From contig CP070737.1 in the NCBI GenBank assembly GCA_020347665.1, positions 458,158 to 522,157 on the forward strand: a stretch of DNA of 64,000 nucleotides, in the 5' to 3' direction. The notes beneath the pieces are model-generated. The model saw only the letters and a list, made by a program, of their open reading frames with translations, searched no databases and was not told where the DNA came from. Both the position numbers and the translations under genes were made by a program. Shown here one piece after another: positions 7,457-24,776 of this stretch. Source of the DNA: Nitrospiraceae bacterium (GTDB lineage Bacteria; Nitrospirota; Thermodesulfovibrionia; Thermodesulfovibrionales; UBA6898). Every line of letters starts with the position of its first letter. Positions within the stretch are counted from its first letter, which is position 1.

Positions 7457-8326
7457 TTATGCAAAGAATTTTTTCAGGGTTTCTTTCTTGATATGACTAC
7501 CTATTAATACTACACGACTTTCTGCTATTGGCCCGGCAAATGGCATAATTCCTGTGTGACCGTAAGAAAGATCGAACCGGTACGGACCTTGGTCTGTCTG
7601 CACCAATGCCTTTGCCCGAACTACCGATCCGAACGTACCCTCAGCAACATCCTGAAAGAATCTGTTGAATGAGTCAAAGGACCTTGTATCAGGAATGAAG
7701 AGAGAGAATGTATCAAAGCTAAAAAAAGAACCGTCTTTTGCTATGATACGCTCTTTTTCGAAAACATGAAGCATAGGCCTGTCTATGGCTGAATGAACCG
7801 TACGGAACAGAAGAGCTTCCGGATTCATTTGTTCGATAATGGTAATTGTTTTCTCGATCATATGCATTTCTGCCAGGTCAATCTTATTAATAAGGATAAT
7901 ATCTGAATTTCTTATCTGATCTTCCACATACGGGCCGTACATGCGGGATTCGTACAGATGAGGAAATTCAGATGAATCAACAATACCAACAACTGTTTCC
8001 CCTTTGATATGCATTGCCCTAAGTGTATCGAGCACGCCTGACGGTGATGCTATACCGCTTGGTTCAATGATAAGGTGATCAGGGCGAAAGTCGTCCTGAA
8101 TTTTTTTTATTGTGCTAATGAGGTCGTCTTTCAGGGTACAACATATGCAGCCACTAGGTAATTCTACTGACTCTATGCCCTCGGATGACAGGACTTCTCC
8201 ATCAATGCCTGCATCCCCAAAATCATTAACCAGCACAACCGTCTTCCCTTTACAGTGCTTCATATTATGATGAATAAACGTGGTCTTTCCCGCGCCAAGC
8301 AGGCCGGAGACTATGGTTATGTCCAT
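7457..8326 (-). CDS. CobW/COG0523 family GTPase (putative metallochaperone)
   Basis: G3E-family P-loop GTPase. Residues 8-16 are the Walker A GLLGAGKTT; the SGCICC motif (C60, C62, C63) is the CxCC metal site that defines COG0523 proteins; HLIIEPSG is the Walker B region and INKIDL the guanine-specificity motif. The C-terminal CobW_C domain is short. Family members deliver zinc or cobalt to client enzymes. Here the neighbours are an OsmC protein on the opposite strand and, 0.9 kb further, the corrinoid/zinc methyltransferase operon, so a role in supplying metal there is possible but only an inference. The start at 8326 has an AAAGGG ribosome binding site. Confidence 0.85.
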   Translation of the reverse strand: MDITIVSGLLGAGKTTFIHHNMKHCKGKTVVLVNDFGDAGIDGEVLSSEGIESVELPSGCICCTLKDDLISTIKKIQDDFRPDHLIIEPSGIASPSGVLDTLRAMHIKGETVVGIVDSSEFPHLYESRMYGPYVEDQIRNSDIILINKIDLAEMHMIEKTITIIEQMNPEALLFRTVHSAIDRPMLHVFEKERIIAKDGSFFSFDTFSLFIPDTRSFDSFNRFFQDVAEGTFGSVVRAKALVQTDQGPYRFDLSYGHTGIMPFAGPIAESRVVLIGSHIKKETLKKFFA

Positions 8327-8444: not shown

Positions 8445-8963
8445 ATGCCAAAGAATAAACCTGATATCAAAGAGATCGTATCCCGGCGGATTGAGTTATT
8501 CAAGAGAAAACCTGAGTCTGCGATCTACCGGCCACATGTTTCTTCGAGGCATATTAAAAATTTGTATACCGAGACGAAGGTCCGTGATCATATCGTAAAG
8601 GCTGATTATGCCGAACCAGCAGGTGGAGACAACAGGGCTCCCAACCCGATTGAGCTTTTACTGGCGGCATTTGCTGCCTGTATCGAGAGCGCCTTTTACG
8701 AATTTGCACTCTGTGAAGGGTTCACGGTAAACGGACTGTCTGTTGATGTTGAAGGCACCCTGGACCTGAGAGGCCTTTTTATGATAGATGAGAGTATTCC
8801 GGCAGGATTCACAAATCTAAAGTATTCCTTCATGGTCGAATCGCCTGACCATGAAGATAAGCTCCGGGATTTGGCGGAAAGAGTTATATTCCATTGCCCG
8901 GTCGTGGACAGCCTCGTAAGGCGGGTACCGGTAGCTGGAGAGATTACGATCCGCAAACAGTAA
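8445..8963 (+). CDS. OsmC/Ohr family protein
   Basis: OsmC-fold protein of 172 residues. The two conserved Cys of the family are present: C79 in FAACIES and C151 in FHCPVVDSL. The segment NPIELLLAAFAAC is the hallmark central helix. Related proteins reduce organic hydroperoxides with a thiol, though many OsmC proteins have no proven substrate. The start has a strong ribosome binding site (GGAGAAAGGA). It is divergent from the CobW-family gene; the 118-bp spacer contains an inverted repeat GTATT-GT-AATAC at 8356-8367 that might be an operator. Confidence 0.85.
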   Translation: MPKNKPDIKEIVSRRIELFKRKPESAIYRPHVSSRHIKNLYTETKVRDHIVKADYAEPAGGDNRAPNPIELLLAAFAACIESAFYEFALCEGFTVNGLSVDVEGTLDLRGLFMIDESIPAGFTNLKYSFMVESPDHEDKLRDLAERVIFHCPVVDSLVRRVPVAGEITIRKQ

Positions 8964-9246: not shown

Positions 9247-10290
9247 ATGTCCATGACACCAAGAGAAACAATTCTGAAGGCCTTTGCAATGGAGAAGCCG
9301 GAACGGATTCCAGTAACGCTTTTTGGAGGTGGAATGTGGTCTATTAAAGACTATGGTACCTCGTTCGAGGAACTCTCCGGAAATGTCGACAAGATGGTTG
9401 ATATGTGTGTTACTGAGGCCGAAAAAATCAGAAGTGATGTAGTGTATGTTGGATCGGGATACAACAATTTTCATGCCGTTGCTATCGGAAAAAATCTTGG
9501 TGCTGACATTAAGTATCGTGAAATCGGTGCCCCGGACCTGACCACTCACTTTGTCAACGCAGAAGAAGATATAGACAAGCTCACTATAGCTGATATCCAT
9601 AACCATCCTGTGGTAAAAACAGTTGCTGAAGCTACCCTGAAAGTGAAAGAAAGGATTGGCGATACCTATCTTGTTACTATGACCTGCTGGGGGCCGTTCA
9701 CGCTGGCTGCCCGTTGTGTCGGTGAAGAACAGTTCATGAAATATACCTTTAAAAAACCGGCATTTGTAGAAAGAATGATTGATTTTTGCGCTGACCTCTT
9801 GATCGCCTTATACGAGCCTCTGGTACATGCCGGCTTAGAGGTCTTAAGCATTGCAGATCCGACTGCTTCCGGAGATTTAATCAATCCAAAACAGATGGAA
9901 CGGTTTGCAGTGCCTCCTCTGAAGAAAATGAGCGACTGGGCCCGCATGAAAAATGCCCACACCATTCTTCATATCTGCGGAGACACGAGCGACCGTATTG
10001 AACTCTTTCCAGCTACAGGATGCTCTACCATATTTTTTGACCAGAAAGTGGATATAGCAGGAGCCAAAGAGATTCTGAAGGAAAAAATGTGTTTTGGCGG
10101 TAATATTGCTCCTGTTCATGTACTGCTCGAAAAAACACCGACAGAAGTGGAAACTGAGTGCAAAGAGGTAATACAGAAAGCAGGAAAAGACGGGGGGTTT
10201 GTCTTGGTGCCGGGGTGCGATATTCCACCCACGATACCATATGAGAATATACGAACATTCCATGATGTGGCGTTGAACTGGAAATACTGA
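9247..10290 (+). CDS. MtaA-like methylcobamide methyltransferase (URO-D family), copy 1
   Basis: TIM-barrel protein of the uroporphyrinogen decarboxylase superfamily, methyltransferase branch. The zinc ligands of methylcobamide:coenzyme M methyltransferases are all present with normal spacing: H242 and C244 in LHICGDT and C324 in PGCDIPP. A true heme-pathway decarboxylase would lack this set. In the known family zinc activates the thiol that accepts a methyl group from a corrinoid protein; other relatives demethylate aryl methyl ethers. The start has a strong AAAGGAGG site. It is the first gene of the operon, with a corrinoid protein, MtrH-like protein and CoM biosynthesis genes downstream, so CoM is the favoured thiol; a demethylase role is the alternative. 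Confidence 0.85.
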   Translation: MSMTPRETILKAFAMEKPERIPVTLFGGGMWSIKDYGTSFEELSGNVDKMVDMCVTEAEKIRSDVVYVGSGYNNFHAVAIGKNLGADIKYREIGAPDLTTHFVNAEEDIDKLTIADIHNHPVVKTVAEATLKVKERIGDTYLVTMTCWGPFTLAARCVGEEQFMKYTFKKPAFVERMIDFCADLLIALYEPLVHAGLEVLSIADPTASGDLINPKQMERFAVPPLKKMSDWARMKNAHTILHICGDTSDRIELFPATGCSTIFFDQKVDIAGAKEILKEKMCFGGNIAPVHVLLEKTPTEVETECKEVIQKAGKDGGFVLVPGCDIPPTIPYENIRTFHDVALNWKY

Positions 10291-10351
10291 CAGGAAGGGA
10301 GGTGAAAGAAGAACTGTTTATGGCTAAGACCTTCTACGGGGAGGATCTGAG

Positions 10352-10873
10352 ATGGGAATTCTGGATGTAATAAAAAAACTGCTCGTTTCGGACAGTGATG
10401 ATTCCGGGACAGAGGTGGAGGTAGAAATGGCAGAAGAAAAAAAGATGACGGCTGAGGAAGCTAATGAGTATATGCAAAAGGTAATGGGGTTTGTCCCCAG
10501 GATGTTTAAGATTGTGAACACAGTAACCCCTGATCCGGGCAGGACGTTTGCTGATTTCTATGCGACTATTTTTGGCGACGGCGCACTTTCAAAAAAAGTG
10601 AAGGAACTCATGTTTACTGCAATTGGAGTTTCCTATTGTTCACCCCGCTGCATTATTCATGTGATTCCTGCTATTAATGCCGGAGCAACGACCGGAGAAA
10701 TATTTGAGGCGGTTTCAGTGGGTATGATTGGCGCCGGTTTTGTTCCGGGAGGACCCGGTATCCCCTATGCCTTTGAATACGCGTTGAAGTGTCTTGACAT
10801 TGAAGCAAAGTTCAGAAAAGGGGAGGAATGGGAATACCTGCCGCAGCCGAAATTTGATCGCGGTATTTATTAA
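10352..10873 (+). CDS. Carboxymuconolactone decarboxylase / AhpD-like protein
   Basis: Small all-helical protein of 173 residues. After an acidic N-terminal 30 residues comes a CMD-fold core with the segment YCSPRCIIHVIPAINAGAT, i.e. C-x3-C-x2-H, close to the AhpD redox motif C-x2-C-x3-H but with an extra residue. It is followed by the typical EIFEAVSVGMIGAGF helix. AhpD-type proteins exchange thiols and disulfides, so this one may handle thiol or disulfide chemistry of the operon, for example around CoM; that is inference. It lies 61 bases after the first methyltransferase and 57 before the MtrH-like gene. Confidence 0.75.
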   Translation: MGILDVIKKLLVSDSDDSGTEVEVEMAEEKKMTAEEANEYMQKVMGFVPRMFKIVNTVTPDPGRTFADFYATIFGDGALSKKVKELMFTAIGVSYCSPRCIIHVIPAINAGATTGEIFEAVSVGMIGAGFVPGGPGIPYAFEYALKCLDIEAKFRKGEEWEYLPQPKFDRGIY

Positions 10874-10930
10874 AACCATGAGGGCGTGCCCCAGTGCACG
10901 CCCTTCCCCATTCCATCTGAAGGAGATTTC

Positions 10931-11878
10931 ATGTTTCTCTTCGCAAAAGAACAAAAAGAATATAAGATCAATTCGATAACGGTAGGGGGACAGCCAGGAG
11001 CACATCCTCCTCTTTTGATAGCATCAATGTTTCATAACAAGGATAAGATTTTAAAAGATAGAAAGGGCAATTTTGACAGGGACAGAGCACGAGAGCTGAT
11101 AAAAACTCAGGAGAAGCTTTCTGCGTCAACCGGCATTCCTTCAATGGTAGCAATGGTTGCTAACTCGGCCGAGGAAGCACGGATATATATTGATTTTTTT
11201 CTTGAAACAACGGATATGCCCTTTGGTATTGATATGTGGATGGCTGAAAAAAGGGCACAGGCGACCGAATATGTGGCTCAGTTGGGTGTGCAGAATAAAT
11301 TCCTGTATAACAGCATAACGCCATGGGATAAGGATATTAGTGGTCAGGTGAAGAAATTAAGAGATCTCGGCATACAGCATGTCGTGATCCAGGCTTTTGA
11401 TGATAAGGATCAGACACCCGAAGGAAGGCTGAAATCGCTCGAACAGATACTTTCACAGGGGGCTGATGGTTTTGAGACCATAATAGTTGATACGTCGGTC
11501 ATGAATTTACCTGCAACATCTTTTTCCCTGATCGCAAACAAGATAATTAAAGAAAAGACAGGGCTTCCATGCGGCGGCGCGTATTCAAACGGTACGCATA
11601 TGTGGAAGGCCTCAAAAGAGATCTGGGGTCTTGACGGCTTCAGGACAATGGATGCGGTAGCACAGGCAATGTCATCGGTATTATGGAGTGATTTCAATTT
11701 TTATGGCCCGATTGTGACGGCACCGAGAATTTTTCCGGCTGTTGCCACTGCTCATATACTTCTTTCTACCCTTGTATACCATGAAATCAAGAATATTCCT
11801 GAGAATACTGATCTGCCTATCCGGCGATATTTCTCAGATTTTATAGAAAAGCTTGAAGCAGGAGCCGCGAGAAAGTGA
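10931..11878 (+). CDS. MtrH-family tetrahydropterin/tetrahydrofolate:corrinoid methyltransferase
   Basis: A 315-residue protein of the MtrH family, the subunit that in methanogens moves the methyl group between methyl-tetrahydromethanopterin and the corrinoid of the Mtr complex. Recognisable family segments are GGQPGAHPPLLIASMFH near the start, PFGIDMW, and GLPCGGAYSNGTHMW in the last third. Bacterial relatives (for example MtvA of acetogens) use tetrahydrofolate. I start at 10931, behind GAAGGAGA; an ATG 15 codons upstream overlaps the preceding intergenic hairpin-like sequence. No other Mtr subunit is present, so the partner is most likely the soluble corrinoid protein encoded at 12945. Confidence 0.88.
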   Translation: MFLFAKEQKEYKINSITVGGQPGAHPPLLIASMFHNKDKILKDRKGNFDRDRARELIKTQEKLSASTGIPSMVAMVANSAEEARIYIDFFLETTDMPFGIDMWMAEKRAQATEYVAQLGVQNKFLYNSITPWDKDISGQVKKLRDLGIQHVVIQAFDDKDQTPEGRLKSLEQILSQGADGFETIIVDTSVMNLPATSFSLIANKIIKEKTGLPCGGAYSNGTHMWKASKEIWGLDGFRTMDAVAQAMSSVLWSDFNFYGPIVTAPRIFPAVATAHILLSTLVYHEIKNIPENTDLPIRRYFSDFIEKLEAGAARK

Positions 11879-11906
11879 ATGTGGAGACTTTCGGAAAGGA
11901 GAACAG

Positions 11907-12941
11907 ATGACAGTGGATAACAGTAGCCCCAGACAGAGGATCCTCAATCTTTTTGCTGGCAAAAAGACAGACAGAGTCCCGTGCTTCAGCGGCATGGGCA
12001 ATGTCACTACTGAGGGCCTGAAAAAATTCGGTTATAAATTTGCAGAACTGCATTCAAACGCAAAAATGTTGGCAGATGCTGCTGCATCGACATATAAACT
12101 TTTCGGATTTGAGTGCGGAATTGTACCGTTCGACCTTTGTGTTGAAGCAGAAGCTCTTGGTTGTGAAATCAATGTATATGCACACTCTGATGACATTCTC
12201 TATCCCACCATAAAGAAGAAATTGATCACCAATGAAGAAGAGATGGACATCAGGATCCCATCTGATGTGAGCAACAGAGGACGGATGCCGCTTATGAAAG
12301 ACGCCATACGCCATCTTAAGTCTGACATAGGAGATAACGCTGTGATTGGATCATATGTCCTTGGTCCTTTTACTCTGGCAGGACAGATTATGGAACTCAA
12401 TGATCTTTTGAAGCTATCATTCAAGAAACCGGACAAGGTTGGCAAACTGCTTGACAATCTTTCTGACGTTATTATCAGCGTGGCAAAAGAATATGAGAGT
12501 GCAGGAGTTGATTTCATTACGGTGAGGGAAATGGGAGCAACATCCGACGTGCTCAGTCCCCGGGTATTCAAAAGTCTGATCTTGCCGTATCTTAAAAAAG
12601 TATTCTCTGAATTAAAGTCAGCCAATGTCCTCCATATCTGCGGTAAGACGAATGACATTGCGGTCTTTATGCTTGAGTCCGGGGCAAAGGCTATCAGTGT
12701 TGATCAGAAAAATGACGTCGCAGAGACGAGAAAAAAGATAGGTAGTAATGCCCTGCTATTTGGCAACTATGACCCGTATAATGTGCTTGTTTCAGGTACT
12801 CCTGAACTGGTTCATGAAACAATAAAGAAATGCATTGACAGCGGTGTCAGTGCGGTATGGCCCGGATGCGATATATGGCCGACTGTGCCACCTGATAATT
12901 TTAAGGCAATGATGGATACAGTACAGCAATACAGGAGGTAG
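11907..12941 (+). CDS. MtaA-like methylcobamide methyltransferase (URO-D family), copy 2
   Basis: Second URO-D-fold methyltransferase of the operon, 344 residues, clearly diverged from the copy at 9247. The zinc ligands are again complete: H243 and C245 in LHICGKT, C321 in PGCDIWP. VLGPFTLAGQIM matches the MtaA/MtbA active-site region. The start at 11907 follows AAAGGAGAA; a longer frame into the end of the MtrH gene lacks a ribosome binding site. It sits 28 bases after the MtrH gene and 3 before the corrinoid protein gene, the place usually held by the corrinoid protein's direct partner, so it is the best candidate for the corrinoid:CoM methyltransferase. Confidence 0.87.
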   Translation: MTVDNSSPRQRILNLFAGKKTDRVPCFSGMGNVTTEGLKKFGYKFAELHSNAKMLADAAASTYKLFGFECGIVPFDLCVEAEALGCEINVYAHSDDILYPTIKKKLITNEEEMDIRIPSDVSNRGRMPLMKDAIRHLKSDIGDNAVIGSYVLGPFTLAGQIMELNDLLKLSFKKPDKVGKLLDNLSDVIISVAKEYESAGVDFITVREMGATSDVLSPRVFKSLILPYLKKVFSELKSANVLHICGKTNDIAVFMLESGAKAISVDQKNDVAETRKKIGSNALLFGNYDPYNVLVSGTPELVHETIKKCIDSGVSAVWPGCDIWPTVPPDNFKAMMDTVQQYRR

Positions 12942-12944
12942 GAG

Positions 12945-13637
12945 ATGACAGGCGAAGACAGGAAGCAGGAAATTTTAGAAGCCCTCAAAAATGCGGTTGT
13001 TCAGTATGATGAAGATGCCGCGAAAGAAGCTGCCCAAAAAGCTCTTGATCTTGATATTAATGTGAATGACGCCATATTCAACGGTCTTGTGTCAGGGATG
13101 GAAGAAGTCGGTAGGCTTTTTGAGGCACAGGAGTATTTTGTTCCTGAGTTGTTGATGTGCGCTGACGCTCTCTATGCGGGTCTTGACTTGTTAAAACCCC
13201 ATGCAGAGACTATGGACCTTGGCGTGAAAGGTTCTGTGGTCATAGGTACGGTCGAGGGAGATGTACATGATATCGGAAAAAACATCGTGAAGATGATGTT
13301 CGATGTGGCGGGTTTTACTGTCTATGACCTTGGCCGTGATGTCCCGCTCGACAAATTTGTCGAAGAGCAGCTAAGGACCGATTCTGATCTCGTATGCCTG
13401 TCTGCCATGATGACAACGACTATGGTGGGGATGCAGAAAGTGATAGACAGGCTGAAGGAAAAAAATCCGGACGTGAAGATTATGATCGGCGGCGCGCCTG
13501 TTTCAAAAGAACTTGCAGATAAATGGGGTGCTGACGGCTATGCTGATGATGCTAATAATGCACTCAAGGACGCTATCAACATGATCAGTTCGCTGAAGAA
13601 GATGAAGGAGGATGCCGAGGCTAAAAAGAGTTCATGA
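12945..13637 (+). CDS. Methyltransferase corrinoid protein (MtaC/MtmC/MtbC family)
   Basis: Methyl carrier of the operon. Residues 1-95 are the helical B12-binding-2 cap; the B12-binding Rossmann domain follows, with the base-off/His-on motif EGDVHDIGKN whose H108 ligates cobalt, then the later SAMMTTT and IGGAPVS loops that contact the nucleotide tail. The length of 230 residues is typical. The gene follows the second MtaA-like gene by 3 bases and overlaps the next gene by 4 bases (ATGA), showing tight translational coupling. Confidence 0.95.
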   Translation: MTGEDRKQEILEALKNAVVQYDEDAAKEAAQKALDLDINVNDAIFNGLVSGMEEVGRLFEAQEYFVPELLMCADALYAGLDLLKPHAETMDLGVKGSVVIGTVEGDVHDIGKNIVKMMFDVAGFTVYDLGRDVPLDKFVEEQLRTDSDLVCLSAMMTTTMVGMQKVIDRLKEKNPDVKIMIGGAPVSKELADKWGADGYADDANNALKDAINMISSLKKMKEDAEAKKSS

Positions 13638-14260
13638 ACGAACAGATAGAAAATCGGCTGATTGGTGCTGGCGCCTCAGTTGTCGGATTTGCAGATGTTA
13701 CCGAGATCCTGGATAATAAAATATCACATCTTGAAAAGGCTATCTCGATCGGAATTGACAGAAAACTGAATGAAAATACCATACATATTCTCTGTGGATT
13801 GCAGAAGCAGACTGCCGGTTACCTGAAAGCCCAGGGATTCAAGTATCTCCGGATCCCCCCTGATTCAGACAGAGTAAGCGGAACGTTTATTTCCAGACTG
13901 TATCCTCTTTTTACTCATAAAATAGCTGCTACCTGTTCAGGGATTGGATGGATCGGGAAAAACGGTCTGCTAATAAACCCTGTTTATGGACCACGTCTTT
14001 CGCTCGCAACTGTTCTTACGGATGCGCCGCTGAGGACTGCCCAACCGATTGAATCCGGAAGGTGCGGCGATTGCAGTCTGTGTGTTGACTCATGTCCTTC
14101 AAAGGCAATTACAGGAAACACCTGGAAGAGATGCAATCCCTTTATTGAACTGCTACACCAGGAGGTCTGTATCTCATACAAAAAAAAAAGCAGGCCGGTT
14201 AACGGCAAACCGAATTGCGGACTGTGCATCAACATCTGCCCTTACGGAAGAGATAGATAG
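13634..14260 (+). CDS. QueG-like 2x[4Fe-4S] ferredoxin protein of the methyltransferase operon
   Basis: A 208-residue protein resembling the middle of epoxyqueuosine reductase QueG: GWIGKNGLLINPVYGPRLSLATVLTD-like segment, then CGDC-x2-C-x3-C and, later, CGLC-x2-C-x3-CP cluster motifs. The N-terminal region is shorter than in QueG (about 310-380 residues) and the C-terminal HEAT-type part is missing, so it is unlikely to be the tRNA enzyme. QueG and reductive dehalogenases are corrinoid enzymes; this protein, coupled by a 4-base overlap to the corrinoid protein gene, may pass electrons to the corrinoid or to its activator. That function is inferred from position. Confidence 0.75.
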   Translation: MNEQIENRLIGAGASVVGFADVTEILDNKISHLEKAISIGIDRKLNENTIHILCGLQKQTAGYLKAQGFKYLRIPPDSDRVSGTFISRLYPLFTHKIAATCSGIGWIGKNGLLINPVYGPRLSLATVLTDAPLRTAQPIESGRCGDCSLCVDSCPSKAITGNTWKRCNPFIELLHQEVCISYKKKSRPVNGKPNCGLCINICPYGRDR

Positions 14261-14407
14261 AGAAGAATATGATGTTTGTTCAAGGAACGGTTGCGGAACC
14301 ATACATCCTTCATGGACTTCATGAGATATGAACTCCATTGTATTAAGGCATTAAGGAATTACTGAGTCTGAGATGGTTTTGAAAATGACGATAGTGGAGA
14401 TGTATAT

Positions 14408-16381
14408 ATGAAAAAACATAAGGTAATATTCCAGCCCTCGGGAAGGAGAGGTGAGATAGCAGAAGGGAAAACTCTCCTTGAAGCTGCGCAATCGCTCGGT
14501 GTTGATATTGAAGGGCTCTGCGGAAAAAAGAAGGTCTGCGGTAAATGTAAGGTGAGAATCGAGGAAGGGTATTTTGAAAAAGATAATATTGATTCCGGAA
14601 TGTCTCACCTCTCTCCGGTAACAGAGGATGAATTAAAGCACATCAAACCAGAGGATGGGCCGGGCATACGTCTTGCGTGCACTGCAGAAATCAGTGGCGA
14701 TGTAAAGGTATTCGTTCCAGAACGATCCCGAGCAGGTAAACAGGTCGTACGCAAGGCTGCCAAGGAACTTTCAATCCCGCTTGATCCTGCAGTCAGAAAG
14801 TATAATATTGTATTAAACCAGCCTACCCTGCATGACATGACCACAGGCGACTATGAACGGATTTTGACATTTCTTGAAGAGGATTACGGGCTGAAAGGGC
14901 TTTCTTTTGACTATACGGCGTTAAAGGATCTTCAGGATGTTTTACGAAGAGGCAAATGGAATATATCCGTGACTGTTTGGATGGATCGAGAGATCATCAA
15001 GGTTGAGCCCGGCTTCGTTGAGAACTGTTATGGCCTTGCAGTAGATGTCGGTACCACGACGGTTGTGGGCTATCTGAGCGATTTGACTACAGGCCGTGTC
15101 GTCAATACTGAGTCAATGATGAATCCCCAGGTGCCGTATGGCGAGGACGTTATGTCCCGTATCACCTATGCCATGTCCAATCCTGAGGGGCTTGAAATAA
15201 TGCAGAAGGCTATTATAGACGGCCTGAATCAGATTATTCGCAATGTTGTTTCTGAAATTAAAGATGACGGTCCTGACCCGGGGCATGCTATTGACGATTT
15301 GACCATAGTCTTCAATACGGCAATGCATCACATATTTCTTGGTCTCAACCCTGAGTACATTGGGAGATCCCCTTTTATCCCGGCTGTGCAGGATTCATTG
15401 AACGTAAAGTCGAGAGATATCGGGATACGAATAAATCCGGCGGCTTATGTCCATGTACTTCCCATTGAGGCCGGATTTGTGGGGGCAGATAATGTTGGAG
15501 TCCTTATTGCTGAAGAGCCGTATAACCAGGACGAAATGGTGCTTATCATAGATATCGGAACGAACGGCGAACTCCTCTTGGGCAACCGGAATAAGATATA
15601 TTCTACTTCCTGCGCAACAGGACCTGCCTTTGAAGGTGCGCAGATAAAGTTTGGCATGAGAGCTGCCCCCGGGGCAATTGAGCGGGTGCAAATAGATCCT
15701 GCGACCAAAGATCCATTATATAAGGTGATTGGTAAGGCTGACTGGCATACGCATCTGGAAAAAGTAAACGCAAAAGGCATTTGTGGCTCCGGCATTATTG
15801 AAGTCGTTGCCGAAATGTTCAAGGCGGAAATCATAGACAAAACCGGAAGATTTGCCAAAGATGTCAGGACATCACGTGTACGCAAGGATACAGAAGGAAA
15901 GCCTGAATATGTCCTTGCATGGGCTGAGGAAACATCAATAGGAACTGACATAACAGTAACACAGGGTGATGTGCGTGCCCTTCAGCTGGCGAAAGGTGCC
16001 CTTTATGCCGGTGCCAAGCTGATGATGGAGAAACTGGGCATTACCAAACTTGACAAAGTCTTACTGGCTGGTGCGTTTGGCAGTCATATAAGCAGAGAGG
16101 CATCACTGACACTTGGTATGTTTCCTGATTGTTCTATCAAAAATGTTTGCGCAGTCGGCAATTCTGCTGGAGACGGCGCGCGGATGACATTATTGAATAA
16201 GTCGAAACGAATTGAAGCTGATGAGCGGGCTCGATGGGTCGAATTTCTGGAAATTGCTACAGAGCCGGCATTTGAAAAGCAGTTCATGCAGGCGATGCAT
16301 TTTCCTCATATGAAGGATTCGTTTCCAAATTTAAAATCAATGCTGGCTGAATCAAGCAGCGGTAAAGAAATCAAAGGCTAA
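14408..16381 (+). CDS. RACo-type reductive activator of corrinoid proteins
   Basis: ATP-dependent activator that reduces accidentally oxidised Co(II) back to Co(I). An N-terminal plant-type [2Fe-2S] domain has C38, C44, C47 and C91 (C-x5-C-x2-C...C); a linker leads to the large ASKHA ATPase domain with DVGTTTVVGYL and IIDIGTNGEL phosphate-binding motifs and GAFGSHI near the C-terminus. The length of 657 residues fits RACo; archaeal RamA is a different, two [4Fe-4S] version. A 147-base gap separates it from the preceding gene, and GGAG precedes the start. Presence of this activator shows that the corrinoid protein cycles through Co(I), as methyltransferases require. Confidence 0.92.
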   Translation: MKKHKVIFQPSGRRGEIAEGKTLLEAAQSLGVDIEGLCGKKKVCGKCKVRIEEGYFEKDNIDSGMSHLSPVTEDELKHIKPEDGPGIRLACTAEISGDVKVFVPERSRAGKQVVRKAAKELSIPLDPAVRKYNIVLNQPTLHDMTTGDYERILTFLEEDYGLKGLSFDYTALKDLQDVLRRGKWNISVTVWMDREIIKVEPGFVENCYGLAVDVGTTTVVGYLSDLTTGRVVNTESMMNPQVPYGEDVMSRITYAMSNPEGLEIMQKAIIDGLNQIIRNVVSEIKDDGPDPGHAIDDLTIVFNTAMHHIFLGLNPEYIGRSPFIPAVQDSLNVKSRDIGIRINPAAYVHVLPIEAGFVGADNVGVLIAEEPYNQDEMVLIIDIGTNGELLLGNRNKIYSTSCATGPAFEGAQIKFGMRAAPGAIERVQIDPATKDPLYKVIGKADWHTHLEKVNAKGICGSGIIEVVAEMFKAEIIDKTGRFAKDVRTSRVRKDTEGKPEYVLAWAEETSIGTDITVTQGDVRALQLAKGALYAGAKLMMEKLGITKLDKVLLAGAFGSHISREASLTLGMFPDCSIKNVCAVGNSAGDGARMTLLNKSKRIEADERARWVEFLEIATEPAFEKQFMQAMHFPHMKDSFPNLKSMLAESSSGKEIKG

Positions 16382-16414
16382 ATCTCATATCAGTATGCCG
16401 TACTGTGAGGTCAC

Positions 16415-16726
16415 ATGACTAACGTTACTATTCATCCAGGCATATGCGGATATGTCGTAAGGGTTTCAGCAAGAAAGACAAATGACAAAAAAGTTCTCGT
16501 TTCGATCGATACAGAATGTGAAACGGTTCGGCAGATGATGAATGACATTACAGTGCTCGATATGAAAGAAGCATGTACAGGATATCTTCAAAATCCTGTT
16601 TACCGGTCTGCGGCACGATGTCTCCAGCATGTTGCCTGTCCAGTACCCTCTGGAATTCTGAAGGCACTTGAAGTGGAACTGGAGCTCTGCCTTCCGGAAG
16701 AAGTGAAGATAACGTTTACTGAATAA
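16415..16726 (+). CDS. Small Cys-rich conserved protein (DUF6951-like)
   Basis: A 103-residue protein with seven Cys: HPGICGY, TECE, EACTGY, ARC-x4-AC and, near the end, ELCLP. I recall this pattern as a family of unknown function (DUF6951) found beside corrinoid activators in methyltransferase operons, but could not check it. The conserved Cys could bind a metal or a cofactor. It lies 33 bases after the RACo gene and 17 before the cytochrome b gene, linking the methyl-transfer part with the electron-transfer part of the operon. Confidence 0.65.
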   Translation: MTNVTIHPGICGYVVRVSARKTNDKKVLVSIDTECETVRQMMNDITVLDMKEACTGYLQNPVYRSAARCLQHVACPVPSGILKALEVELELCLPEEVKITFTE

Positions 16727-16743
16727 TAAGGAATCAGCTGAAC

Positions 16744-17433
16744 ATGAGGACAACGGGAATTATCCTGATTGCTGCCACATACAGTGTTTATCTCGCTTTC
16801 TGGATTCGTATCATCTGGCATTTCATCATCTGGTATCGGGCAGCCAACGCTTTTAAGGTATATCCTCTCTCGTCAAAAACGTCGCTGGATATGCTCGCTC
16901 TTATTGCAGCGGATCTCTTCCTTTTCAGAAGACTTTTCATATCGAACAAATTACTCTGGATAGGCTCATGGACATTTCATCTGGCCTTTGTACTTGTTCT
17001 CTTTCAACATCTGAGATTCTTTATGGATCCTGTTCCGTCAATCATTTTCGTCATGCAGCCGATTGGGAGGGCAGCGGGATACGTACTTCCGGTATCACTC
17101 GTATATATATTTGGACTGAAAATGATAAGGGAAAGACAGAGATATGTATCTCGACTCAATATTCTTGTCATGAGTCTGATATTTCTTATCAGCGCGAGCG
17201 GATTTGCATTAAAATTCGTGGCACGTCCTGATCTTGTTCAGGTAAAGGCTTTTATGATCGGAATTCTGAGATTTTCACCTGAAGTAGTCCCGGAGAGTTC
17301 TCTTTTTCTGTTTCATTTCCTTATGGTTCTTTTCCTGCTGCCCTATCTTCCGTCTCATGTTTTTACAGCTCCATTTGTTACTATAGAAGCAACAAAACGT
17401 GATGAGGAACTGAACATTCTATTGCGTGATTAA
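16744..17433 (+). CDS. HdrE/NarI-like cytochrome b membrane subunit
   Basis: Integral membrane protein of 229 residues with about five to six hydrophobic helices. His residues occur in pairs typical of heme b ligation in the NarI/DsrM/HdrE family: WTFH-x9-H-x-R in one helix and FLFHF...LPSH in the last helix, with an earlier WHFIIWY. The size is close to HdrE of Methanosarcina. It is followed 23 bases later by the HdrD-like gene, so the two should form an HdrDE-type complex that links disulfide chemistry to membrane quinones (or to another lipid carrier). Heme binding is inferred from the His pattern. Confidence 0.8.
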   Translation: MRTTGIILIAATYSVYLAFWIRIIWHFIIWYRAANAFKVYPLSSKTSLDMLALIAADLFLFRRLFISNKLLWIGSWTFHLAFVLVLFQHLRFFMDPVPSIIFVMQPIGRAAGYVLPVSLVYIFGLKMIRERQRYVSRLNILVMSLIFLISASGFALKFVARPDLVQVKAFMIGILRFSPEVVPESSLFLFHFLMVLFLLPYLPSHVFTAPFVTIEATKRDEELNILLRD

Positions 17434-17456
17434 CAAGAGGTAAGAGATCTGCTCGT

Positions 17457-18689
17457 ATGTCAAAAGATCGGACGACTCATAAGAAGCGGTCATTTATAGA
17501 AGAACTGACAAAACAACAGGTTCTGGAAATTGATGCCTGCACACAATGCGGAGAATGTCTCAGGCACTGTCCTGTCCAGGAAGTCAGTGGAAACCTGTCG
17601 ATTTCACCCCCGGAGAAGATACGCATGTTCCGGGAATTTATACGAGCGACAGAAGGCTTAAAGAACTGGTTATTCGGCAGAGATGTTGATCAGAAACTAC
17701 TGGAGGACTTTACCCGAGCGGTCTTTGAATGCACGACCTGCGGTTCGTGCAGCCAAAACTGTCCTGTCGGTATCTATACACAACGGCTCTGGCCAGTGTT
17801 GAGAAAAGAGATGGTCAAGCGTGGACTGGGTCCGCTGGGTCAGCAGGCTGAGATGCCCGCCGTCATAGAGAAGACCGGCAATCCCTATAACAAACCGCCG
17901 GATCAGAGATTTAGCCCATGGTTTCCCGAAGGGGTTGCAATATCTGAGCAGGCCGACATTGCCTATTATGCCGGGTGTACCGGTTCCTACGAAGCTTATC
18001 CCATGGTGCGGGGCGATGTCCTGGTGCTGAGTTCAATCGGTTCACCATTTACTACCCTCCCTCCTGAGGAAGAAGTGTGTTGCGGTTTTCCACTTTTTAT
18101 TACCGGGCAACATGACCTGCTTGAGAAGCTTGTAAAGAGACTGGTGAATGCGTATCAGGAAAGAGGAGTAAAAACGCTTCTCTGCTCCTGTCCCTGCTGT
18201 GTCAATATTATGGTCCGTGATTGGCCGGTATTCTATGGAAAAAAACTCCCTTTCAGCATACGACATATAACGCAATTTGTCTCAGATGCGCTCAAGAAAG
18301 GGGCACTGGTGATCACGAGTGAGCTGAACCAGAGGGTTATTTACCATGATCCGTGTTATTTGAGCAGAGGGGTGGGGATCATGGAAGAACCGAGGACAAT
18401 TCTCAACAGTATTCCGGGCATTACGCTGCTGGAATTTGACAGACATGGACTTGATTCGCGCTGCTGCGGTGCCGGAGGTGCTGCACGAAAGGTTTTTCAG
18501 GAAAATGCCATGGCAATGGGCAGATTAACAATTGACGAAGCAGTCTCCAAAAAAGCTGATAAACTCATATTGAGTTGCCCAGCCTGTTATGAAAAGGTGA
18601 ATGATGCCATGAAGGGGCATGATAACCAGATACAGATAGTAGATATTATGGAACTCCTTGCTGATCTTATAGAAGGATGTAATCAGTGA
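17457..18689 (+). CDS. HdrD-like heterodisulfide reductase catalytic subunit
   Basis: A 410-residue Fe-S protein, essentially the length of methanogen HdrD. Two ferredoxin motifs come first (C28, C31, C34, C38 and C92, C95, C98, C102). Two full CCG domains follow: C174, C208-C209, C245, C248 and C300, C336-C337, C374, C377, with spacings that fit the CX31-39CCX35-36CXXC rule. In HdrB/HdrD these hold the unusual [4Fe-4S] clusters that split CoM-S-S-CoB. GlpC and lactate-utilisation proteins share the architecture, but the cytochrome b upstream and CoM genes downstream favour an Hdr role. The stop codon overlaps the next start (GTGA), so it is translationally coupled to the cysteate synthase gene. 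Confidence 0.85.
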   Translation: MSKDRTTHKKRSFIEELTKQQVLEIDACTQCGECLRHCPVQEVSGNLSISPPEKIRMFREFIRATEGLKNWLFGRDVDQKLLEDFTRAVFECTTCGSCSQNCPVGIYTQRLWPVLRKEMVKRGLGPLGQQAEMPAVIEKTGNPYNKPPDQRFSPWFPEGVAISEQADIAYYAGCTGSYEAYPMVRGDVLVLSSIGSPFTTLPPEEEVCCGFPLFITGQHDLLEKLVKRLVNAYQERGVKTLLCSCPCCVNIMVRDWPVFYGKKLPFSIRHITQFVSDALKKGALVITSELNQRVIYHDPCYLSRGVGIMEEPRTILNSIPGITLLEFDRHGLDSRCCGAGGAARKVFQENAMAMGRLTIDEAVSKKADKLILSCPACYEKVNDAMKGHDNQIQIVDIMELLADLIEGCNQ

Positions 18690-19945
18690 GCCATTTCACG
18701 ATACAATGCAGAAATTGCGGGAAAGACTTGAGAGAAGTGTACTGTGCATTTTGTGAGCATTGCAAAAACGCACTTCTCGTTACGAAATATAAAGATAAAA
18801 CCTTCAGTAACACGGTTGGCCGGGGTATCTGGGGATTTAACTGGCTTCCGATTCACCATGCTGATTTTAACCAGTCCGGGCCTGTGGTTTATAAATCAAA
18901 AGGATTGTCGACTCATATCGGGCTTGATGATCTCTATATTGCGTTTAATGGGTATGCCCCTGAAATAGGAGCATCACTCGAGACCTGTACGTTTAAGGAA
19001 TTTGAGGCTGCGGTTGTGCTTCAGAATGCTCTTGAAAACGGTATGAGTGGTCTTGTGGTTGCTTCTGCGGGGAATACAGCCAAGGCATTCTCGCACCTGT
19101 CAGTCATATCGGGATATCCGGTCATTGTAGTTGTACCGACAATGTGCCTTGTGGATATGTGGTATCTTGAGCATTCATCGTCGATTCTGACGGTTGCTGT
19201 TGGAGACGGTGACTATGCTGATTCAATTGATGTGGCAAGAAGGATATCTCTGATAGCAGGTTTCCCGTTTGAGGGTGGTGTAAAAAATATCGCCAAACGG
19301 GATGGACTGGGACTGGTCTTGTTGGAAGCTGTCTCGGAAATGGGCAGGCTGCCAGCACACTATTTTCAGGCAGTAGGAAGCGGTACCGGGGCCGTCGGCG
19401 TGTGGGAAATGGCAGAACGGTTTGTTCAGGATGGGAGGTTTGGTAGTGCGTTGCCGACCTTGCATCTGGCGCAAAACCTTCCCTTTGCCCCGATGGTATA
19501 TGCATGGAATAAGAATAGCAGAGAGCTTTTTCAGGACGATTTGAGGCCTGAATTACTGAGTCAGATTACCACACGGGTGCTCTCTACACGTTATCCGGCT
19601 TATTCCGTAAAAGGCGGAGTATTTGACGCACTTACCGCTACCAATGGAAGAATGTACGGGATAGAGAATAAAGAAATCTTCCGTGCAATGGAAATCTTCG
19701 AACATACGGAATGTCTGGATATTGTCCCTGCTGCTGGCGTTGCTGTTGCTGCTCTCATGAATGCCGCAGACCAAGGGAATGTTTTGAGAGATGAATTAAT
19801 TCTGCTCAATATAACCGGTGGTGGAGAAAAAAGATTAATGGAGGACAAGAAAACGTTTGCTGTTGAACCCCATATTATATCCAAAAAAATTTCAGATGGG
19901 GAAATTGAGGATCGCCTGTGCCATACCCTGAAGAAGAACTCGTAA
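18686..19945 (+). CDS. Cysteate-synthase-like PLP enzyme (coenzyme M biosynthesis)
   Basis: Fold type II PLP enzyme related to threonine synthase, 419 residues. The N-terminal end carries zinc-ribbon-like Cys (C8, C11, C20, C23, C26). K104 in CTFKEFEA is the likely Schiff-base Lys, and ASAGNTAKA (N130) binds the PLP ring; GSGTGA later binds phosphate. The overall pattern matches the Methanosarcina cysteate synthase, which replaces the phosphate of O-phosphoserine with sulfite to make L-cysteate, a CoM precursor. An ordinary threonine synthase is the alternative, but the next gene encodes the next-but-one enzyme of CoM synthesis, as in Methanosarcina. The start is a GTG overlapping the HdrD stop by 4 bases. 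Confidence 0.85.
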   Translation: MSHFTIQCRNCGKDLREVYCAFCEHCKNALLVTKYKDKTFSNTVGRGIWGFNWLPIHHADFNQSGPVVYKSKGLSTHIGLDDLYIAFNGYAPEIGASLETCTFKEFEAAVVLQNALENGMSGLVVASAGNTAKAFSHLSVISGYPVIVVVPTMCLVDMWYLEHSSSILTVAVGDGDYADSIDVARRISLIAGFPFEGGVKNIAKRDGLGLVLLEAVSEMGRLPAHYFQAVGSGTGAVGVWEMAERFVQDGRFGSALPTLHLAQNLPFAPMVYAWNKNSRELFQDDLRPELLSQITTRVLSTRYPAYSVKGGVFDALTATNGRMYGIENKEIFRAMEIFEHTECLDIVPAAGVAVAALMNAADQGNVLRDELILLNITGGGEKRLMEDKKTFAVEPHIISKKISDGEIEDRLCHTLKKNS

Positions 19946-21072
19946 GCATACTGAAGAACGGCGGTGTAGATTTCACCTCTTCACTGCCCTGTGAGAAAAT
20001 CAAATTCCTGCTGGAATTGCTGCCCGAATCTTTTTTCCATGTCCCTTTGACCCGTGAGGAAGAAGGTGTGGGCATCAGCGCGGGAGCGGCGCTTGCCGGA
20101 AAAAGACCGGCCATGTTTGTCCAGAGTTCGGGTATTGGAAATATGGTCAATGCACTGCTCTCGCTCACAGCATTTTATACATTGCCTCTTTCGATTTTTA
20201 TCAGCCACAGGGGTATACATAAAGAAAAGATAGCAGCGCAGGTGCCTATGGGTTACAGACTCGCCGGGGTGTTAAAGGGAGCGGGTATATCATATTCCAT
20301 GATCAGGAAACAAGAGGACTTTGGTATGATTAAAAAGGTTCTTAACCGGATGTATAAGAAGAATATGATACACGCTTTTCTCATGAGTCCGGCTCTATGG
20401 AAAACAGCCGATCCGGACCGTCAGATGTCGGAGGTAAGAGTCCGAACGAGACAGCACCTGATGAAGAAAACGGAACCGTCATCCAAACAAACGCGATCAT
20501 CTTTGTCACTGCTCTCCCGTTTCGAGATCTTACAGACAATGGCTCCCTTTATAACATCGAAAGCTGTTATTTGTAATTTAGGCTGGCCGGCAAAGGAACT
20601 GTTTTATGTAAAACATCAGCCCTCGAATTTCTATATGTTGGGAAGCATGGGCATGGCATCGCCGATAGGGCTGGGTATCAGTCTTACGAGTACAAAAGAG
20701 GTTCTCGTTATTGATGGGGACGGCAGTTTGCTGATGAATCCTGGCATTCTGGCAACTGCAGCGCATTATGCGCCGTCGAATCTTACCATACTGGCTATTG
20801 ATAACAGTTCCTATGGTTCGACGGGCGACCAGCCTACGCTTACAGGTTCCTGTGTGGATCTTGAGGCTGTTGCCAGAGGTTTTGGCATCAGAAATACGGT
20901 TAAGGTATCGAACAAGAGGCAGATTACTTATGCGATGAAAAAGAGTCACCCGGAACTACGGTTCATCCATGCTCTGGCTCGTGCCGGAAACGAGGATGTT
21001 CCTAATATAACGCTTGATTACCTGAAAAACAAAAAGCAGTTCCAGCGTTTTCTGAAAAACGAGAGCAGTTAA
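19918..21072 (+). CDS. comDE: Fused ComDE-like sulfopyruvate decarboxylase
   Basis: Thiamine-diphosphate enzyme of 384 residues combining the ComD and ComE halves. The first half has LTREEEGVGISAGA (catalytic Glu at 47-49) and SSGIGNMVNALLSL; the second has LGSMGMASPIGLG, the cofactor motif GDGS (267-270) and DNSSYGSTGDQPT. Sulfopyruvate decarboxylase makes sulfoacetaldehyde, the step before reductive thiolation to CoM. Phosphonopyruvate decarboxylase is closely related, but the coupling to a cysteate-synthase gene (28-base overlap, GTG start) points to sulfopyruvate. An aminotransferase for cysteate and the final thiolation enzyme are not in the operon. The stop codon overlaps that of the convergent next gene. 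Confidence 0.85.
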   Translation: MPYPEEELVSILKNGGVDFTSSLPCEKIKFLLELLPESFFHVPLTREEEGVGISAGAALAGKRPAMFVQSSGIGNMVNALLSLTAFYTLPLSIFISHRGIHKEKIAAQVPMGYRLAGVLKGAGISYSMIRKQEDFGMIKKVLNRMYKKNMIHAFLMSPALWKTADPDRQMSEVRVRTRQHLMKKTEPSSKQTRSSLSLLSRFEILQTMAPFITSKAVICNLGWPAKELFYVKHQPSNFYMLGSMGMASPIGLGISLTSTKEVLVIDGDGSLLMNPGILATAAHYAPSNLTILAIDNSSYGSTGDQPTLTGSCVDLEAVARGFGIRNTVKVSNKRQITYAMKKSHPELRFIHALARAGNEDVPNITLDYLKNKKQFQRFLKNESS

Positions 21073-21659
21073 AGACGTCCTGTTCTGTTATACGCATCAA
21101 TATAGAGTCTCATCGCACGCATGAGGAGCCATTCCTGCGAAACACCATGTTCGGCAGCAATTGCTATCATGTGATCGAGAAGATTCCTATTGTCCGCTAA
21201 GTGTTCCTGAGATCGGTGATCATCCTTGTCAAGAGAGAGTTCTGATGTGGTGTCGGGCATTCTCTTCTTATGTTCCCTGTGCAACAATTCCATGAGGAGC
21301 TTAACATCGCCTGACTGAACAGCCCGCTGTACGTCTTCCGGGGGCTCATGAGAGTGTGGCTCTGTTTCTCCACCTGCTGTCCTGTCTGTGACGGACATGC
21401 CTTTTTGATCTTTGGAATCGTCATTGAGACCATGTATTGGCATCATGCCCATTAAACCCATCATCAATTCAGTCAGCTTTCTGCCATATAAGGAATCAGG
21501 CAGTTCCTGCTGTATAAATTCATTCATGGTGCCATCAACCAGTGCCCTCGCCATCCTGTCGAACATGAGGGCATTGTCGGACTTATGTTCTTCAAAGAAT
21601 TTCTTTGTTCCAAATGGAGTTTTTGGCGGCTTCGGCAGCGGCCTGTCTTTTTTTGTCAT
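21069..21659 (-). CDS. Hypothetical protein with charged, helical C-terminus
   Basis: A 196-residue soluble protein starting at the ATG at 21659 behind AAAGGAGA. The N-terminal part is Pro/Lys-rich; the middle has a hydrophobic Met-rich stretch (MMGLMGMMP) and a His/Asp-rich low-complexity linker; the last 40 residues look like a compact helical segment (MIAIAAEHGVSQEWLLMRAM). I do not recognise a family. Its stop codon overlaps the ComDE stop in the convergent orientation, so it ends the operon region. No signal peptide or membrane helix that would clearly be inserted is seen. Confidence 0.6.
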   Translation of the reverse strand: MTKKDRPLPKPPKTPFGTKKFFEEHKSDNALMFDRMARALVDGTMNEFIQQELPDSLYGRKLTELMMGLMGMMPIHGLNDDSKDQKGMSVTDRTAGGETEPHSHEPPEDVQRAVQSGDVKLLMELLHREHKKRMPDTTSELSLDKDDHRSQEHLADNRNLLDHMIAIAAEHGVSQEWLLMRAMRLYIDAYNRTGRL

Positions 21660-22655: not shown

Positions 22656-23645
22656 TTATTGGGTGGTAATTTCGTCGTTATAGTGATCCTGTGGAGGATG
22701 TATGCTATCTATTATGCTCATATCAAAAATGTCATCTTCTTCGAGGATATGCCTGATATAACCAAGCTGTTTTAATATTTTCACGAAATCAATGGTGGCA
22801 GATCGGTATTCAAGACTGAGATAAGCACAATATTTTGGAGAAACCATTATCGTGTCCATGACAAAATCCCGGTCGATAAATCCGACATAATCTGAAATTA
22901 CCTGAGAAGCTTCAAGGGGCATTCGCCTCAGAAACGACGTGACGTCCTCATGTGCTGAGAGAAACGTTCCTATCAGTTCGGTCTTTTCAGTTAACAATTC
23001 TCGCGTCACAAGAATTCCATAACTCGGATTGTTTGGCCAAAGCAGGAATGGTGGATACAGTATCTTTCCGCTGGCATAACGTTTGAGGGCTATCGACAGA
23101 GCTGGCGTACCGCATGCCGCAGCAATCTCTCCTTTCCCTACAGCTTCCAGTATAAGATCGGCCCAACGGAAATTGACTACAGAGACATCATCTCCGGCGT
23201 GACATGCTTCAAGGTAGTGTCTAAGTATGACATCATGGATAGAGCCTTTCCCCGGAACACCGATTTTAAATCCGTGAAACTGCTTTAGAATAGTTTTGAT
23301 ATCGCTTACTTCAGGAAACCCGGTTAACGTTTTTATTCCACTAAGCACAGTACCTTCCATATGCCCGCCTGCAACGCATGTTATCGGGACACCGCGATCA
23401 ATACCAATTATGGCAGGCGGAAGGCCAACATAAGCCAGATCAATCTGTCCCATTTCAAAAGCGTTCACAATATCCGGGCCGGTTCCGAATAAGCGCCATT
23501 CAATCTCTGCGTCAACGCCTCTAAGGAATTCAGGCTTTGCCATCATGGTAATTGCCGTATGGTAGAACGTTGAAAGATGTCCTATTCTTAATCTTCTAAC
23601 GTTATTCTTTCCATGCACCTTACCCCTGGCTTTAATACTTTTCAT
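22656..23645 (-). CDS. NMT1/SsuA-like substrate-binding protein without signal peptide
   Basis: A 329-residue periplasmic-binding-protein fold of the nitrate/sulfonate/taurine (NMT1, SsuA) type: LRIGHLSTFYHTAI at the start, FGTGPDIVNAFEMGQIDLAYVG and GVPGKGSIHDVIL as ligand-lobe motifs. No signal peptide or lipobox is visible from either possible start, and no ABC permease or ATPase lies nearby, so it may be cytoplasmic, a sensor or a biosynthetic relative. The start at 23645 (behind GGAAAG) overlaps the nitroreductase gene by 14 bases, so the two are made together. Sulfonate specificity would fit the CoM theme but is speculation. Confidence 0.7.
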   Translation of the reverse strand: MKSIKARGKVHGKNNVRRLRIGHLSTFYHTAITMMAKPEFLRGVDAEIEWRLFGTGPDIVNAFEMGQIDLAYVGLPPAIIGIDRGVPITCVAGGHMEGTVLSGIKTLTGFPEVSDIKTILKQFHGFKIGVPGKGSIHDVILRHYLEACHAGDDVSVVNFRWADLILEAVGKGEIAAACGTPALSIALKRYASGKILYPPFLLWPNNPSYGILVTRELLTEKTELIGTFLSAHEDVTSFLRRMPLEASQVISDYVGFIDRDFVMDTIMVSPKYCAYLSLEYRSATIDFVKILKQLGYIRHILEEDDIFDMSIIDSIHPPQDHYNDEITTQ

Positions 23646-24147
23646 AGTGAATTTTACTTTCCTGAAACTCCGTATCTTTATGGGGCTCATGGTGTTTCGA
23701 AGGATACCCTAACGGCATAAGGCAGTGCACGCGGATATGATCTGGAATATCCAGTATTTCTTTAACATACGCTTCAGGGTCTCCTTTACTTCCTTCAGCC
23801 CCATCAGATATCTGTATGTAGCACGTTCCCAGATCCTGATTTACTGCCTCGAGATAGACGTGCCCTGCAGCAATTGAACAGTCTTCCTTGAAACGGTTTC
23901 CTTTGTCAGTATCGTAAGCAATAATAATTATTATGGGTGCATTTTTGGCAAATGAAGCATAAGGAGTTGCCTGTGACAACCGTTTTTTATTAGCGGAATC
24001 TTTGACGATAATGAATTCCCATGGCCGTAATGCACGTGCGGTAGGCGAAAACATTGCAGCCTTAAGAATCTCAGTTATTTTATCCTCTTCGATTTCTTTT
24101 TCAAAATAAGATCTAATACTTCTTCTTTTTCTTATTATCTCAAGCAT
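23632..24147 (-). CDS. Nitroreductase family flavoprotein
   Basis: A 171-residue FMN-binding nitroreductase-fold protein. RKRRSIRSYF at residues 6-15 and SPTARALRPWEFIIV are the FMN phosphate and isoalloxazine contact regions; AAGHVYLEAVNQDLGTCYI is the dimer helix, and MPLGYP closes the fold. Members reduce nitro groups, quinones or other acceptors with NAD(P)H. It is too short and lacks the marks of BluB. It overlaps the downstream substrate-binding-like gene, so the pair likely shares one pathway, unknown to me. It is divergent from the corrinoid adenosyltransferase gene. Confidence 0.8.
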   Translation of the reverse strand: MLEIIRKRRSIRSYFEKEIEEDKITEILKAAMFSPTARALRPWEFIIVKDSANKKRLSQATPYASFAKNAPIIIIIAYDTDKGNRFKEDCSIAAGHVYLEAVNQDLGTCYIQISDGAEGSKGDPEAYVKEILDIPDHIRVHCLMPLGYPSKHHEPHKDTEFQESKIHYEKY

Positions 24148-24251: not shown

Positions 24252-24776
24252 ATGAAGAAGGGATACATTCATATCTATACCGGTGATGGGAAAGGGAAGA
24301 CGACAGCCGCTGTTGGTCTTGCAGCGAGGGCAAAAAGCCAGGGGTTCAGGGTCCTGTTTGTACAATTTTTTAAAGAACATCGACAAAGCGGTGAGATCAG
24401 ATTGCTTGAGAATGCAGGTATAGAAACCATGATATTTAAAGATGTTCGTTCGCCGTTATTTAATCCTTCCTTGAACAAAAATAAACTGAGAAAGAAAACA
24501 GAGGACGCCATGGAGATGCTCAAAAAGGTTTTGGATAAAGATGAGTTTGACCTCATGGTACTTGATGAATTTAACTGTCTGATATATGAAGGATTGCTTT
24601 CAGAAGACGAAGCAGCGGCATTCATACGGAACAAGCCCGAAAGACTTGAACTGGTCCTAACCGGAAGGGGTGCCCCTGAAAGGACAATAGAAATCGCCGA
24701 TTATGTTACGGTAATGCAAAAGGTTAAACATCCCTACAGAGACAACATCAAGGGAAGAAAGGGCATTGAGTTTTAA
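24252..24776 (+). CDS. cobO: Corrinoid adenosyltransferase CobO/BtuR (CobA type)
   Basis: ATP:cob(I)alamin/cob(I)yrinate adenosyltransferase of 174 residues. The family P-loop GDGKGKTTAA is at residues 11-20, LMVLDEFN is the Walker B-like region, LVLTGRGAPE and VKHPY are conserved late motifs. It makes adenosyl-corrinoids from salvaged or newly made corrinoids. It is monocistronic here but lies 3.2 kb after the end of the corrinoid methyltransferase operon, consistent with a strain that depends on corrinoids. The N-terminal region upstream of the P-loop is short, as in CobA-type enzymes. Confidence 0.92.
   Translation: MKKGYIHIYTGDGKGKTTAAVGLAARAKSQGFRVLFVQFFKEHRQSGEIRLLENAGIETMIFKDVRSPLFNPSLNKNKLRKKTEDAMEMLKKVLDKDEFDLMVLDEFNCLIYEGLLSEDEAAAFIRNKPERLELVLTGRGAPERTIEIADYVTVMQKVKHPYRDNIKGRKGIEF

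Follow-up and report, generated by a model that had tools for sequence, protein, structure and literature searches.

A conserved operon of dsrA-carrying Nitrospirota joins genes for probable coenzyme M synthesis with genes for corrinoid-dependent methyl transfer and an HdrDE-like pair

What use a bacterium without methyl-coenzyme M reductase (MCR) could have for coenzyme M (CoM), a cofactor familiar mainly from methanogenic archaea, is the question raised by a twelve-gene operon in a dsrA-carrying Thermodesulfovibrionales bacterium (Nitrospirota). The operon occupies positions 9247-21072 of the window, i.e., the complete stretch of 64,000 nucleotides analyzed here (contig CP070737.1, assembly GCA_020347665.1), to which coordinates refer. 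It contains genes for corrinoid-dependent methyl transfer, an HdrDE-like pair, cysteate synthase (cysS) and a fused sulfopyruvate decarboxylase (ComDE), and we consider it probable that it encodes an MCR-free, CoM-dependent module for methyl exchange and thiol redox chemistry. All twelve open reading frames lie on the plus strand, with intergenic gaps in order of 61, 57, 28, 3, -4, 147, 33, 17, 23, -4 and -28 bases. The three overlaps, two of 4 bases and one of 28, agree with the original prediction made from the sequence, and a purine-rich stretch precedes the start codon of most of the genes.

The case for CoM synthesis starts with the last two genes. The cysS product scores 464.5 bits with the cysteate synthase model TIGR03844 (cut-off 324.9) and at most 69 bits with threonine synthase models, so that an identity as threonine synthase was rejected. 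The ComD (alpha) part of ComDE exceeds the cut-off of TIGR03845 (182.5 versus 148) and the ComE (beta) part lies slightly under that of TIGR03846 (211.5 versus 221.5); phosphonopyruvate decarboxylase was rejected because its model yields 189, below a cut-off of 312. The identities first proposed for both genes thus hold. In Methanosarcina, cysteate synthase is likewise followed by ComDE (MA3297-MA3298, PMC12713407), with similar lengths, as part of a type-2 CoM biosynthesis that includes ComF/MMP16 (MA3299). Unlike its archaeal counterpart, the operon studied here is bacterial, has no COG1900 ComF, has an SsuA-like protein in its neighbourhood and resides in a genome without MCR. Xanthobacter autotrophicus Py2 also represents bacterial CoM, but employs it in epoxide carboxylation, and its pathway begins with a ComA-type phosphosulfolactate synthase. 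The corresponding domain (PF02679) had no match in the host genome, and CoM synthesis of the Xanthobacter type was therefore rejected. Judged by sequence, CoM is the strongly supported product of the pathway.

Is this pathway linked to methyl transfer? Co-occurrence was counted among 121 relatives, and 39 loci were read around cysS; a scan of a genome collection by exact peptides of a window protein captures near relatives only, not the distribution beyond the Nitrospirota. At least 22 related genomes share all twelve genes in one identical order, which excludes chance; most of the other loci are cut by contig ends. The block hdrE-hdrD-cysteate synthase-comDE next to mtaA/mtrH, for which the original prediction had suggested a search, is thus conserved. 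cysS is present in 47 of the 121 relatives (46 above the cut-off and one split gene) and the operon mtrH in 50. Every one of the 47 cysS carriers has mtrH (Fisher p 2e-30, shared ancestry not corrected for), none has cysS alone, and a single relative, G071, has the methyl half only. The two halves of the operon are hence not independent. At two loci, L038 and L048, cysS-comDE is located apart from the methyl operon, and both genomes retain both parts. For ten of the eleven other operon proteins, pairwise distances track those of cysS more closely than in 500 permutations, a pattern expected from joint inheritance; this did not hold for mtaA1.

In a wider sample of 396 Nitrospirota genomes, cysteate synthase was found in 61; these include other orders and one family (f25), probably of the class Nitrospiria since one member is so named, and the twelve-gene order recurs there as well. 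Named relatives sharing the enzyme belong to the Nitrospirota, mainly to the Thermodesulfovibrionia, and include Nitrospiraceae bacterium Ngb-4, which we take as Ca. Sulfobium mesophilum (PMC5812927). One operon (L119, JACUUL010000001.1, Thermoleophilia Kmv30) comes from a contig deposited under Actinomycetota. Its cysteate synthase clusters with that of a Nitrospirota locus (L114, support 94/95), the neighbouring genes F12 and F11 follow as in Nitrospirota, and misbinning, misnaming or transfer may each account for it. In another relative (G080, L163:3835-4103), cysS lacks residues 35-363 next to intact comDE and F11, by deletion or assembly collapse.

Genes inserted into the operon add to this picture. 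In eight genomes, folD lies between the genes for DUF6951 and hdrE (or a substitute cytochrome), which ties the operon to tetrahydrofolate (THF) C1 chemistry. A three-gene SsuABC-type sulfonate ABC importer occupies three different positions within the operon in five genomes (one seen partly), and its binding protein scores 194 and 196 against the aliphatic-sulfonate SsuA cut-off of 163.5. One of these five is G071, which has kept the methyl half and lost hdrED, cysS, comDE and F11. Most simply, this suggests that the methyl half depends on a sulfonate, for instance CoM, which the cell either synthesizes or takes up. Together with the SsuA-like neighbour F11, these insertions strengthen the case for a link between CoM and methyl transfer.

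The remaining gene identities given in the original prediction also stand in profile searches, with a loose label for HdrE. Both MtaA-like proteins belong to the URO-D/MtaA family. MtaA2 passes the PRK06252 (272 > 244) and mtaA_cmuA (253 > 235) cut-offs, MtaA1 (185) falls below, and neither reaches the MtaA equivalog cut-off of 400 (245.6 and 167.5, respectively). The best structure match of MtaA2 is the methylcobalamin:CoM methyltransferase PDB 4ay7 (E 2.8e-45), and the His-x-Cys...Cys zinc site, aligned to 4ay7, is invariant in both paralogues in all sequences compared. A His-Cys-Cys zinc site marks S- or Se-methyltransferases, O-demethylases having a Cys substituted (Kountz and Balskus, PMC10418091). 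The MtrH-family protein, probably a methyl-THF:corrinoid protein methyltransferase, passes its subfamily cut-off (337 > 287) and not that of the archaeal equivalog TIGR01114 (158 < 271); with 212, the corrinoid protein remains below its cut-off of 215. For DUF6951, Foldseek matches the predicted structure to an IscU/SufE-like fold (probability 0.99, E 0.03); together with invariant C11, C35, H72 and C75, this suggests a role as iron-sulfur or sulfur carrier.

In the HdrD-type protein, the CCG sites (C174/C208/C209/C245/C248 and C300/C336/C337/C374/C377) are invariant among 45 sequences and the eight cubane-cluster cysteines are conserved. Its best curated match is TfrB, a subunit of CoM/CoB thiol:fumarate reductase, with 197 bits versus 89 bits for DsrK. 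The cytochrome has no Pfam match, and its best NCBIfam model is DsrM (64 bits); four invariant histidines could ligate two b hemes. The hdrE slot of some relatives instead holds another NarI-like cytochrome, whose best match is QmoC. The pair shares cytochrome b and CCG iron-sulfur protein with the HdrDE and DsrMK membrane complexes but, unlike them, does not have the same cytochrome partner in all relatives. Cluster motifs and gene context lead us to infer that it acts on a CoM disulfide.

Archaeal contamination was rejected because ordinary bacterial genes flank the operon on a single 2.25 Mb contig. McrA (PF02249) had no match in any of the 121 genomes, so methane or alkane chemistry via MCR was rejected, as was methylotrophy on methanol, trimethylamine or betaine, with MtaB found in none of these genomes and MttB in just four, the host carrying neither. 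The host and almost all of its relatives carry dsrA. The CdhC domain of acetyl-CoA synthase, present in 116 of the 121 genomes, was not detected in the host; with the genome 91% complete, this could reflect a true lack or incomplete sequence.

The module also differs from related methyl-transfer systems. It shares an MtrH homologue, corrinoid protein, MtaA homologues and a corrinoid reactivation protein with the methanogen Mtr complex and MtaABC; however, the operon lacks the other Mtr subunits, the genome lacks MtaB, and the expected partner is THF instead of tetrahydromethanopterin. An MtrH-family enzyme, a small corrinoid protein and RACo are common to Mto/Mtg demethylation systems, whereas the His-Cys-Cys zinc site is of the S/Se type, MttB is absent, and CoM genes and HdrDE are added. 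Type 1 mlp clusters of non-methanogens likewise contain several His-Cys-Cys MtaA-like proteins, a corrinoid protein and its activator, but occur mostly in Firmicutes without conserved synteny, unlike the operon studied here, whose gene order is fixed and which includes CoM synthesis genes and HdrDE; the paper describing them mentions neither MtrH nor cysteate synthase (PMC10418091).

We propose that cysteate synthase would combine phosphoserine and sulfite to cysteate, which a general aminotransferase would convert to sulfopyruvate; ComDE would then release sulfoacetaldehyde, which could become CoM by chemical addition of sulfide or through F11. RACo and the QueG-like ferredoxin protein would keep a single corrinoid protein in its reduced state, and this protein would serve as methyl hub: the MtrH-like protein would connect it to THF, MtaA2 to CoM and MtaA1 to a third thiol or thioether, with methyl groups exchanged at each of the three links. 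The cytochrome b/HdrD pair would connect the menaquinone pool electronically to a CoM-containing disulfide. Starting from the observed gene content, motifs, conservation and co-occurrence, we infer the partners of the methyltransferases, the third substrate, the HdrDE substrate and the source of the disulfide. In other bacteria, the MtaA and MtrH families also serve THF, and the direction of methyl flow is therefore not fixed by gene identities. The oxidative direction appears more likely: a methyl-S compound would be converted via methyl-THF to CO2 in conjunction with sulfate reduction, with CoM acting as methyl carrier.

Several observations weigh against a CoM-dependent module. The archaeal enzyme converting sulfoacetaldehyde to CoM belongs to the COG1900 family (PMC12068725), and neither the host nor any cysS carrier has ComF/COG1900 (PF01837), the Methanosarcina and Methanocaldococcus controls being positive; a COG1900 CoM synthase elsewhere in the host genome was thus rejected, and CoM formation is not closed genetically. 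The absence of MCR leaves methyl-CoM without an evident fate and makes the origin of any CoM disulfide the main gap. In addition, the MtrH-like protein and MtaA1 stay under the archaeal equivalog cut-offs, a structure search with a helical membrane model of the cytochrome gave only weak matches to diheme b cytochromes, and G071 retains the methyl half without CoM genes. From the original prediction that the bacterium makes CoM and uses it as methyl carrier, the coupling of CoM synthesis to methyl transfer stood (47/47), and the known gene for the last step was not found. Sulfide, however, can react non-enzymatically with sulfoacetaldehyde to yield CoM (PMC12068725), and in a sulfide producer this chemistry alone could supply the last step.

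The missing COG1900 gene would also fit a production of sulfoacetaldehyde or another sulfonate (taurine, isethionate, a sulfonolipid precursor) by cysS and comDE, with their operon position a regulatory convenience, and a cysteate synthase serves sulfonolipids in some bacteria (PMC11211663). We regard this as very unlikely, given the unaided formation of CoM by sulfide in a host with dsrA, the tight coupling to MtaA-type S-methyltransferases and an operon that holds no sulfonolipid or sulfoacetaldehyde-consuming gene. Alternatively, CoM could be a general thiol buffer, as it protects Methanosarcina from oxidants (PMC12713407). The methyl genes would then belong to bacterial methyl-S/Se metabolism, whose clusters have similar His-Cys-Cys zinc sites (PMC10418091), in agreement with the folD insertions and with an MtrH-like protein that passes the broad subfamily model and fails the archaeal equivalog. 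A general buffer would be expected to occur alone, yet cysS without methyl genes was seen in 0 of the 121 relatives, and MtaA2 is nearest to a CoM-specific enzyme; the buffer function is accordingly unlikely. A third possibility, doubtful though less so, concerns the HdrDE-like pair, which could act in a DsrMK-like manner on a protein thiol, i.e., the AhpD-like CMD protein or DsrC, instead of a CoM disulfide. DsrM as the best curated match of the cytochrome and its replacement by the QmoC-like protein speak for this; the two complete CCG sites of HdrD, its preference for TfrB over DsrK and the position of hdrED directly upstream of the CoM genes speak against it. It would alter one step of the proposed CoM-dependent module and leave the CoM synthesis part in place.

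Next to the operon, two genes on the opposite strand are associated with cysS. F11, an SsuA/NMT1-like protein, is encoded in all 47 cysS carriers and additionally in three genomes without intact cysS (G008, G021, G080), and adjoins the relocated cysS-comDE at L038 and L048. C81, C264, H86 and other His/Cys residues of F11 are invariant. The co-occurrence with cysS, newly noted here, and the absence of the archaeal CoM synthase family make F11 a candidate for the last step; it may catalyse CoM formation, bind CoM or serve as a sensor. That F11 is the CoM synthase and that these Nitrospirota run an MCR-free energy metabolism with methyl-CoM and CoM disulfide as intermediates and HdrDE as respiratory site, so that methanogen-type cofactor chemistry would be uncoupled from methane in bacteria, is a tentative proposition and, taken as a whole, improbable. 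Among 44 relatives having F12, 40 carry cysteate synthase. Genes for a CobW-family GTPase, an OsmC-like protein and a corrinoid adenosyltransferase flank the operon in the window and likewise in several relatives.

Table 1 Operon genes, neighbouring genes and importer insertions (window positions unless a locus is named)
Feature	Position	Strand	Remarks
CobW-family GTPase	7457-8326		flanking gene
OsmC-like protein	8445-8963		flanking gene
mtaA1, MtaA/UroD-family zinc S-methyltransferase	9247..10290	+	invariant H242, C244, C324
CMD/AhpD-like protein	10352..10873	+	clear in Pfam; C100 and H103 invariant
mtrH, MtrH-family methyltransferase	10931..11878	+	
mtaA2	11907..12941	+	invariant H243, C245, C321
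Methyltransferase corrinoid protein, two-domain	12945..13637	+	invariant D-x-H-D-x-G-type B12 motif
QueG-like protein	13634..14260	+	two 4Fe-4S motifs; possible corrinoid reductant
RACo, corrinoid reductive activator	14408..16381	+	2Fe-2S and ASKHA domain; clear in Pfam
DUF6951	16415..16726	+	clear in Pfam
HdrE/DsrM/NarI-like membrane cytochrome b	16744..17433	+	invariant His 79, 89, 191, 205
HdrD-type protein	17457..18689	+	two 4Fe-4S motifs, two complete CCG motifs; every Cys invariant
cysS, cysteate synthase	18686..19945	+	TIGR03844
comDE, fused sulfopyruvate decarboxylase	19918..21072	+	
F12	21069..21653	-	no family match
F11, SsuA/NMT1-like sulfonate-binding fold	22656..23690	-	no signal peptide; cytosolic
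Corrinoid adenosyltransferase	24252-24776		flanking gene
SsuABC-type importer insertion	L109:7319-9899		
SsuABC-type importer insertion	L152:13123-15698		
SsuABC-type importer insertion	L153:13965-16547		
SsuABC-type importer insertion	L054:1291-3782		

All enzyme families of the operon are already known, and it is their combination as a CoM/methyl-transfer operon that appears to be new. In agreement with the initial impression that no bacterial pathway with this full set had been described, no account of the operon was found in the open literature, subscription journals and bioRxiv being mostly outside this coverage, and the Ca. Sulfobium paper (PMC5812927) mentions neither coenzyme M nor corrinoid methyltransferases. 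Bacterial CoM in the literature found belongs to alkene/epoxide metabolism and arises by a different, convergent pathway. If our interpretation is correct, CoM-based methyl transfer exists without MCR in dsrA-carrying Nitrospirota. This would have consequences for the evolution of methanogen-type cofactors and for the fluxes of carbon and sulfur through groundwater, sediment and paddy soil, the habitats of the uncultured carriers, and F11 would provide a concrete gene candidate for a biosynthetic step to which no gene has been assigned.

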